Shown here one piece after another: positions 45,876 through 48,043 of a stretch of 64,000 nucleotides of DNA. The stretch comes from an uncultured Deferribacteres bacterium (lineage in GTDB: Bacteria; Zhuqueibacterota; JdFR-76; DREG01), in contig CAJVYQ010000002.1 of assembly GCA_913009825.1 (NCBI GenBank), positions 1 through 64,000 of the forward strand, read 5' to 3'. A model generated the notes under the pieces. It saw only the letters and a list, made by a program, of their open reading frames with translations, was not told the DNA's origin and made no database searches. Both the position numbers and the translations under genes were made by a program. Within the stretch, counting starts at the first letter, position 1; every line of letters begins with the position of its first letter.

Positions 45876-47231
45876 TCAGTCGATTTTGGGTAATTGCGCC
45901 ATTGCCGCATCGATCAATTCTTTGGGGTATTGGTAATTTGACAATCTTCCGGCCAGATAATCGTCGTAGGCGGAAAGATCAAAATGGCCGTGACCGCTAA
46001 AGTTGAATAGAATTGTTTTTTCGGTTCCGGTTTCTTTGCATTTTTTTGCCTGACGTATTACTTCTGCAATCGCGTGTGTGGTTTCGGGAGCCGGCACAAT
46101 GCCCTGGGTTCTGGCAAAGAGAAGCCCGGATTCAAACGTTTCCAATTGCTGAATTGCATTTACGTTAATTAATTTCTGTTTTGCCATCGCGCTTACTAAC
46201 GGCGCCATTCCGTGATAGCGCAGTCCGCCGGCGTGAATTTTGGGAGGTATAAAACCATGCCCCAGTGTATACATTTTCAGTAACGGCGTCAAACCGGAAA
46301 GATCGCCAAAATCGTAGGAGTAAAGTCCTTTTGTAATGGATGGCGATGCAGCGGGTTCGATGGCAATAATATCGATATCTTTGCCGTTAATTTTATCTTT
46401 GGCAAAAGGGAAAGCGAGTCCGGCAAAATTGCTGCCGCCGCCGATACAGCCGATGATCACATCAGGATATTCGCCAACAGATTTCATCTGTTCTTTCGCT
46501 TCCAAACCGATAACCGTTTGATGCATCAGGACGTGGTTCAGCACACTGCCCAAAGCATATTTTGTCCCCGGATGGCTGATGGTTTCTTCCAACGCTTCGC
46601 TGATCGCCATTCCCAGGCTTCCCGGTGAATCGGGATCTTCCGCTAAAATTTTTCTGCCGGTCTCTGTCTGTTCCGACGGACTGGCGTAAATTTTACCATT
46701 CCAGACTTCGATTAACGAACGGCGATACGGTTTTTGCTGATAGCTCACCTTCACCATGTAAACAATACACTCGATATCAAAAAGATTGCAGGCAAAGGAA
46801 AGCGCGCTGCCCCACTGGCCGGCGCCGGTTTCCGTGGCAATTCTGTTGAACCCTTCTTTTTTATTGAAATAGGCCTGCGCTACCGCAGTGTTTGGTTTGT
46901 GACTGCCCGGAGGACTGACGCTTTCATTTTTAAAATAGATCCTTGCGGGTGTTGCCAACGCCTCTTCCAATCGATATGCCCGCACTAAAGGAGTTGGGCG
47001 CCACAGCCGGTAGATATCTAAAATATCTTCCGGGATGGCTACAAATCTCTCCATAGTAACTTCCTGTTTGATCAATTCCATGGGAAAAATGGGGGCAAGA
47101 TCGTCAGGGCCAATCGGTTTTTTAGTTGCCGGATGCAAAGGCGGATCCGGAAGTTTTTTTAAATCCGCTTGAATGTTGTACCATTGCTGCGGTATTTTGT
47201 CTTGTGACAGAGTAATAATAGATTGCACCAT
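45876..47231 (-). CDS. trpB2: tryptophan synthase beta chain, TrpB2 type
   Basis: A 451-residue PLP enzyme of the TrpB2 branch, about 50 residues longer than ordinary TrpB. The cofactor lysine is K112 in [11 protein letters not shown], the phosphate loop is GCIGGGSN, and [14 protein letters not shown] binds substrate. The enzyme joins indole with serine to make tryptophan. No trpA or other trp gene is in the window, consistent with TrpB2 often standing alone. A trp-type attenuator with a Trp-rich leader peptide lies directly upstream (47265-47477), which argues that the physiological product is tryptophan. AGGAGG lies 6 bases before the ATG. Confidence 0.94.
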
Positions 47232-47264
47232 GTTGTTCCTCCTGTTTAGTTTATGATGAATGAG

Positions 47265-47301
47265 TAAAAAAAAAGCCCGTTTTCTAAATTAAAAACGGGC
47301 T
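47265..47301 (-). terminator. attenuator terminator before trpB2
   Basis: On the minus strand AGCCCGTTTT... pairs with AAAACGGGCT (plus-strand arms 47292-47301 and 47274-47283) with an 8-base loop, followed by nine Ts (47273-47265). It lies between the leader peptide stop (47322) and the trpB2 start (47231). A competing antiterminator can form between 47344-47358 and 47283-47295. Confidence 0.9.
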
Positions 47302-47321
47302 CATTGCAAAAAATCTTTAGA

Positions 47322-47420
47322 TCAAAAACGCAAATTCGGTTCCTTTTTCAATTTAGATACAAACCACCACCAGCCCCACCAAAATCGCCAATCTAAATTA
47401 AAAAACATTGTCTTCTGCAT
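47322..47420 (-). CDS. trpL: tryptophan-rich leader peptide (trp attenuator)
   Basis: A 32-residue peptide starting at ATG 47420 with AGGG 6 bases upstream. Its centre reads DWRFWWGWWWF, with Trp at positions 11, 14, 15, 17, 18 and 19: six Trp codons in nine. It ends at TGA just before the attenuator terminator. The RNA holds three related segments. Region 1 (47391-47399, just before the Trp codons) can pair with region 2 (47344-47358, just after them). Region 2 can also pair with region 3 (47283-47295), which overlaps the terminator stem and loop. A ribosome stalled at Trp codons would cover region 1, let region 2 pair with region 3 and prevent termination. The encoded peptide probably has no other role. 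Confidence 0.88.
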   Translation of the reverse strand: MQKTMFFNLDWRFWWGWWWFVSKLKKEPNLRF

Positions 47421-47448
47421 TTTTTTCCCTGTAAAAATAATTGTATGA

Positions 47449-47477
47449 AATGTAATGATATCTTTTGTGTTTGTCAA
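47449..47477 (-). promoter_or_regulatory. promoter of the trpL-trpB2 unit
   Basis: On the minus strand a perfect -35 TTGACA (47477-47472), a 17-base spacer and TACATT (47454-47449) form a good promoter. The -35 box overlaps the stop codon of bioY. Transcription would start near 47442, about 22 bases before the leader peptide. Confidence 0.7.
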
Positions 47478-48043
47478 CCATAAATAAAAATTTTAATTTG
47501 ATCCTTTAACTTCACAGCGATCACCGCGGCCAAAACCGATTTAATAAGCAAACCGGGAATAAAAATAACAAACCCAAAAAAAATTGCTTTAAATATGGGA
47601 AAACTTCCCCCAGTGTAAAAATTTTTCAACACCCACAGATAGGCTATGCCCGGCACGAAAATAAGCAGGGAGGCGATGACCATATTCAGCCAAATTGAGA
47701 ATGTTTTGTGGGGAGATTTTTCCCGGATTCTACCGATTCCCGCCTCTTTGCCGGTCCAATAGGCGGCAATTGGAAATGCAATCAAATAACCGAATCCCGG
47801 AGTCAGAACAATTCCCGGGCCGCTGCCGCCGGCAAAAACAGGAAGTCCGATAATTCCCAACAGCAGATATATCCCCATGCTCACAGCACCCCAGGTTGGC
47901 CCCAGAAAGCAGCCGGAAAGCAGAACAAAAAATGTCTGTAAAGTAAACGGAACCGGCAACATGGGAATCCTGATTACAGCGCCGATACCCGTTAATGTGG
48001 CCATCAAACCGGCAAGCAGGAGCATTTTAAGTTGTGTTTGCAC
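47474..48043 (-). CDS. bioY: biotin transporter BioY
   Basis: A 189-residue membrane protein with about six hydrophobic segments, the substrate-binding (S) component of an ECF-type biotin transporter. Family features are IRIPMLPVPFTLQTFFVLLSGCFLGPTWGAVSMGIYLLLG, here spanning about residues 25-64, and GSGPGIVLTPGFGYLIAFPIAAY. No BioM/BioN energy components are nearby; BioY can work alone or with a shared ECF module. The start is GTG at 48043 with AGGA about 11 bases upstream; ATG at 48025 is an alternative. Confidence 0.92.
   Translation of the reverse strand: MQTQLKMLLLAGLMATLTGIGAVIRIPMLPVPFTLQTFFVLLSGCFLGPTWGAVSMGIYLLLGIIGLPVFAGGSGPGIVLTPGFGYLIAFPIAAYWTGKEAGIGRIREKSPHKTFSIWLNMVIASLLIFVPGIAYLWVLKNFYTGGSFPIFKAIFFGFVIFIPGLLIKSVLAAVIAVKLKDQIKIFIYG

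Follow-up and report, generated by a model that had tools for sequence, protein, structure and literature searches.

Among known systems, a close counterpart of the leader reported here is the enterobacterial trp attenuator (trpL, RF00513), in which a leader peptide carrying Trp codons is followed by RNA segments that pair in alternative ways ahead of trpE. Candidate Trp attenuators, each consisting of a Trp-codon leader and a terminator, have also been described in Actinobacteria, one of them before the trpB2A gene of C. diphtheriae (PMC1262725). What TrpB2 does in the cell has been disputed ever since the enzyme was discovered, and regulation offers independent evidence of function. TrpB2 has been described as an indole-scavenging enzyme (PMC2700814), and its role has also been called open (PMC1854888). 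Its reported dependence on O-phospho-L-serine comes from work in vitro (Busch 2014, as cited in PMC11917138). In Geobacter, trpB2 lies within a trp operon (PMC2700814).

We analyzed a 64,000-nt stretch of DNA from an uncultured Deferribacteres bacterium (hereafter the window), in which a trpB2 gene is preceded by a Trp-rich leader on the minus strand (47477-47265; Table 1). The gene product scored 652.6 bits against TIGR01415, above the curated cut-off of 518.85, and 728.6 bits against NF009057 (cut-off 366), but only 151.6 bits against the canonical TIGR00263 (cut-off 392). It was thus assigned to the TIGR01415/PRK12391 class and not to canonical TrpB. Its GSHK and ETGAGQWG motifs align with archaeal TrpB2 structures, and the catalytic motifs are kept. 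The TrpB2-class enzymes with solved structures (PDB 6hul, 4qys, and 6hte) are homologous to it at E ~1e-117 or better, and no leader attenuator was found for them in the literature searched.

The first-pass annotation of this DNA had described a promoter with a 17-nt spacer, a 32-codon peptide with six Trp codons, and a terminator with nine Ts ahead of trpB2, and all of these are present. The alternative pairing of region 2 that it proposed also stands, but region 1 is longer than it had given, with 15 bp instead of 9. The helices 1:2 (15 bp) and 2:3 (13 bp) are mutually exclusive, and regions 1 and 3 contain a common 13-mer, TTTTTAATTTAGA. The overlap claimed between region 3 and the terminator is confined to the loop and the upper part of the 5′ arm; the G-C base of the hairpin (AGCCCG/CGGGCT) is not invaded.

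Table 1. Features of the trpB2 leader and gene in the window, in the direction of transcription
Feature	Position	Strand	Basis or remark
Promoter −35, TTGACA	47472..47477	-	consensus match only; overlaps end of ORF 47474-48043
Promoter −10, TACATT	47449..47454	-	17-nt spacer to −35
Leader RBS, AGGGA	47426..47430	-	sequence reading
Leader peptide MQKTMFFNLDWRFWWGWWWFVSKLKKEPNLRF, 32 codons, stop included	47322..47420	-	ORF translation
Region 1, 15 bp with region 2	47391..47405	-	pairing computation
Control codons Trp11, 14, 15, 17, 18, 19	47364..47390	-	leader translation
Region 2, partner region 1 or region 3	47344..47358	-	pairing computation
Intrinsic terminator hairpin (3:4)	47273..47302	-	fold and scan, 12 pairs by scan
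Region 3, 13 bp with region 2 (antiterminator)	47283..47295	-	pairing computation
Nine-T tract	47266..47274	-	sequence reading
trpB2 RBS, AGGAGG	47238..47243	-	sequence reading
trpB2, 451 aa, TrpB-like PLP enzyme	45876..47231	-	profile search

Shuffling the ORF 20,000 times never gave six Trp in nine codons in any frame, and no ORF with at least four Trp in ten codons occurred in 3 Mb of simulated sequence. The 69-nt terminator-bearing segment folded at −18.8 kcal/mol (z −4.7), and none of 200 shuffles was as stable. No 23-mer among 4000 drawn at random from the window equalled the 2:3 duplex (−11.1 kcal/mol); in one shuffle test confined to the leader segment, the pairing was not significant (27/200). 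The promoter pair matches the consensus at 10 of 12 positions, and comparable sites were equally frequent in shuffles, so that it is weak on its own and not significant. Upstream lies a membrane-protein-like ORF (47474-48043) that ends at 47474. A terminator would be expected there anyway, and the hairpin might merely end transcription of this ORF, with trpB2 being constitutive. Such a coincidence would fit the promoter-like matches being just as common in shuffles, but it is extremely improbable, as the Trp density was never reached by shuffling and the design is repeated in 24 genomes, where the Ser-Gly codons of region 2 are conserved and pairs covary, as well as ahead of trpE (see below).

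Among the elements that define trpL-type attenuators, the leader has clustered codons for the regulating amino acid in a short ORF and an intrinsic terminator between this ORF and the gene. It also has an antiterminator that excludes the terminator, although in the window's copy it is the weaker of the two structures, and a 1:2 protector helix whose region 1 would lie under a stalled ribosome if the presumed footprint holds. No Rfam family matched the window at gathering scores. Against RF00513 (Trp_leader), the leader scored 21.6 bits, below the gathering score of 41, and is not a member of that family. No DNA similarity was found between the leader and plasmids.

Folding of the leader RNA gave −27.4 kcal/mol with the terminator and −22.4 kcal/mol when the antiterminator was forced. 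As the terminator of this leader is more stable by ~5 kcal/mol, the choice between them must be kinetic and made during transcription. We infer the following course of regulation in the cell. When Trp is plentiful, the ribosome would clear the Trp codons and reach the stop codon (47324-47322), which would free the 1:2 helix; with region 2 paired to region 1 (or occluded), the terminator would fold. When Trp is scarce, stalling at Trp11-15 would place the ribosome over region 1; its footprint is expected to cover roughly 47408-47377, which corresponds to region 1, when Trp11 occupies the A site. Region 2 would then pair with region 3 while region 4 has yet to be transcribed, and RNA polymerase would continue into trpB2. 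The enzyme would convert indole, either recaptured or obtained from neighbours, to tryptophan, probably taking the amino-acid portion from O-phosphoserine. We consider it very probable that a trpL-type attenuator ties trpB2 to charged tRNA-Trp in this way and that TrpB2 makes Trp from indole. Translational coupling or Rho-dependent control in place of an intrinsic terminator is very unlikely: an antiterminator weaker than the terminator in this leader would be compatible with it, but a strong hairpin with nine Ts occurs at an unvarying position across the 24 leaders compared, and ~80 nt beyond the leader stop trpB2 is provided with a separate AGGAGG site.

Of the 82 genomes of the phylum, 50 had TIGR01415 genes. 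In 24 genomes from eight families (f1, f4, f5, f8, f18, f19, f22, and f23), trpB2 was preceded by a Trp-rich leader and a terminator, which lay 13-37 nt past the leader stop in all 24. In most of these leaders, a stretch of Trp residues (WWGWWW, for example) is followed by AGUGGG (Ser-Gly codons), which forms region 2, and then by AGCCCGCU, which forms the terminator arm. In an alignment of 22 leaders (A1), the terminator was 93.2% paired, and both bases had changed in 6 of its 10 pairs. The antiterminator in the same alignment was 82.3% paired, compared with 30-62% when slid, and 4 of its 9 pairs had changed on both sides. The four-segment design that had been proposed from the window alone is thus supported both by its sequence elements and by comparison across relatives, in which Trp codons, terminator, and antiterminator pairing are conserved.

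The window's copy keeps the G-C base of the terminator and makes the 2:3 pairing in new sequence, UCUAAAUUGAAAA with UUUUUAAUUUAGA. The letters of its regions 2 and 3 differ from those of all relatives and yet pair, which indicates that the pairing has survived a change of letters. trpB2 was absent from both other genomes of the window's own family, so that no close relative (n = 2) tests this exact copy. A conserved UGGUGGGGCUGG (Trp-Trp-Gly-Trp codons) occupies columns 31-42 of A1, corresponding to 47381-47370 of the window; GGGCU of UGGUGGGGCUGG is able to pair with AGCCC in the terminator arm, as are the conserved UGGGGCUGG codons. Among the relatives L035-L099, no convincing Trp leader was seen ahead of trpB2, except in one Bacteroidales (L072/L196). 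In the latter, trpB2 stands behind a short ORF with two Trp codons and a terminator, a possible attenuator in a second phylum, and none of the other 14 Bacteroidia trpB2 genes had a convincing Trp leader.

The window's genome also contains an intact trpEGDCFBA operon, on contig 54, and trpB2 stands apart from it. With a full trp operon present, TrpB2 is not the sole source of Trp in this organism. The operon has its own Trp leader, MMHFNSSYKTKRNNWWWYYLQSGFCMFD, and a terminator (L004 3457-3603). The RNA model built from trpB2 leaders matched this leader with an E-value of 4.9e-10; many weak matches of the model (E > ~1e-7) covered the hairpin part only and were left out. Besides being found by the same model in the same genome, the two leaders have in common their Trp codons and an AGCCCG terminator arm. 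They differ in region 2, which is AGUGGG (Ser-Gly codons) in the operon leader, as in most relatives, and UCUAAAUUGAAAA in the trpB2 leader. Two tandem terminator-like hairpins after the Trp codons were observed in the trpE leaders of L120, L121, L125, L126, L127, L130, L133, L135, and L137. The third match of the model in the window's genome, on contig C73, was rejected as a Trp leader because its codons are for Cys. There, a Cys-rich leader, MINPASYHFNFCCCACSCLTSDNNGKIMCLCAT, and a terminator precede cysK-cysE (L204 1079-1240; about 17578-17739 of C73), and the leader is likely a Cys attenuator. With Trp and Cys leaders in one genome, codon-cluster attenuation looks like a general habit of the organism.

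In families f9, f14, and f20, the RNA model also matched ~1 kb upstream of trpB2, with a gene of ~300 aa lying between (e.g. L185 1620-2510 and L186 1639-2541). Profile comparison placed this gene closest, among solved proteins, to SbnI (4e-17) and to SerK, a free serine kinase (0.0097), and its best folds in Foldseek were SbnI (5uje, 3e-15) and a free serine kinase (5x0b, 2e-13). SbnI and SerK aligned over nearly the full length (238-276 columns), whereas ParB and sulfiredoxin (Srx) aligned over only ~80. Both SbnI and SerK phosphorylate free serine to O-phosphoserine (PMC12704722, PMC5120207). The gene in f9, f14, and f20 shares the fold of these L-serine kinases, and their HE and DGxxR motifs are present in it, but with 57-60 bits against the NCBIfam SbnI equivalog cut-off of 350, it is a distant homologue. 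From its sequence and fold, the SbnI/SerK-like gene likely encodes an O-phosphoserine-forming kinase.

The SbnI/SerK-like gene lies just upstream of trpB2 in 13 of the 13 genomes of f7, f9, f14, and f20 in which the contig reaches that far. Nine genomes have the order Trp leader, SbnI/SerK-like gene, trpB2, and each of the nine leaders has Trp codons and a terminator. The contig of G076 ends within the SbnI/SerK-like gene, behind a Trp leader. In f7 (L010, L011, and L014), a chorismate-mutase-like ORF, the SbnI/SerK-like gene, and trpB2 stand in a row, and no Trp leader was seen ahead of the SbnI/SerK-like gene. Three divergent homologues in f16 fall outside this context count. The presence of such a gene in an operon with trpB2 matches the reported O-phosphoserine dependence of TrpB2. 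No homologue was found in the window's genome, where O-phosphoserine would therefore presumably come from serine synthesis. A leader in L219 (about 430-590) has five His codons and one Trp codon (HVHHNIHAHGW) and a terminator; it precedes trpB2 and a kinase gene that seems to be truncated, and a switch of the sensed amino acid is possible.

In 15 of the 33 genomes with a Trp leader on trpB2 or on the kinase-trpB2 operon, all drafts in which single absences may be gaps, none of trpE, trpA, and trpB1 was detected. At least 90% completeness is reached by nine of these 15, and all five trpB2-bearing f19 genomes agree. Without detectable copies of these three genes, the 15 genomes could use TrpB2 only with indole produced elsewhere. 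Other Trp-linked controls were also seen ahead of trpB2. Five genomes of f13 and f17 (L087 2697-2954; L012, L019, L025, and L117) carry trpR immediately before it, and in a member of the Dehalococcoidales (L059 2579-2846), a T-box with UGG after GAA in its specifier loop lies ~150 nt upstream. Three different Trp-linked arrangements ahead of trpB2 argue for a role of its product in tryptophan supply. The attenuator could be real and the product of TrpB2 a different one that is needed when Trp is scarce, for example if the enzyme were a serine deaminase or catalyzed another beta-substitution. The location of trpB2 outside the window genome's trp operon and the role that has been called open would suit such a function. 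We nevertheless regard it as unlikely, because trpE of this genome is under the same kind of predicted control, trpB2 is the sole Trp gene found in 15 genomes, trpR or a Trp T-box precedes it in other lineages, and the catalytic motifs are kept.

The leader itself supports a role of TrpB2 in tryptophan supply, putatively by indole salvage. The supply of tryptophan by TrpB2, which the first-pass annotation had already claimed, is strengthened by the trpB2-only genomes, the kinase-trpB2 operons, and the trpR and Trp T-box ahead of other trpB2 genes. For the phylum as a whole, we lean towards TrpB2 being a Trp-regulated indole-salvage synthase, in part within a two-gene pathway in which an SbnI/SerK-like kinase would provide the O-phosphoserine that TrpB2 joins to indole. 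If true, this would be a dedicated O-phosphoserine-dependent tryptophan route under ribosome-mediated Trp control. Switching of trpB2 by charged tRNA-Trp is predicted in many genomes, with trpR or a Trp T-box elsewhere. Both indole salvage and the use of O-phosphoserine in the cell are now directly testable with two genes and one reporter.

A literature search that lay mostly outside subscription papers turned up neither an attenuator preceding a lone trpB2 nor a kinase-trpB2 operon, and the earlier statement that no case ahead of trpB2 had been described is uncontradicted. The nearest described case is C. diphtheriae trpB2A (PMC1262725), a trpB that adjoins trpA and is likened to the present gene by name and not by TIGR01415 class, whereas the window's trpB2 stands alone. 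As far as sequence can tell, the window's leader is a ribosome-mediated Trp attenuator with a classical mechanism and an undescribed target. It shares with the enterobacterial trp attenuator the Trp-codon peptide, the competing 1:2, 2:3, and 3:4 helices, and the intrinsic terminator; trpL controls trpE, whereas the leader described here would control trpB2.
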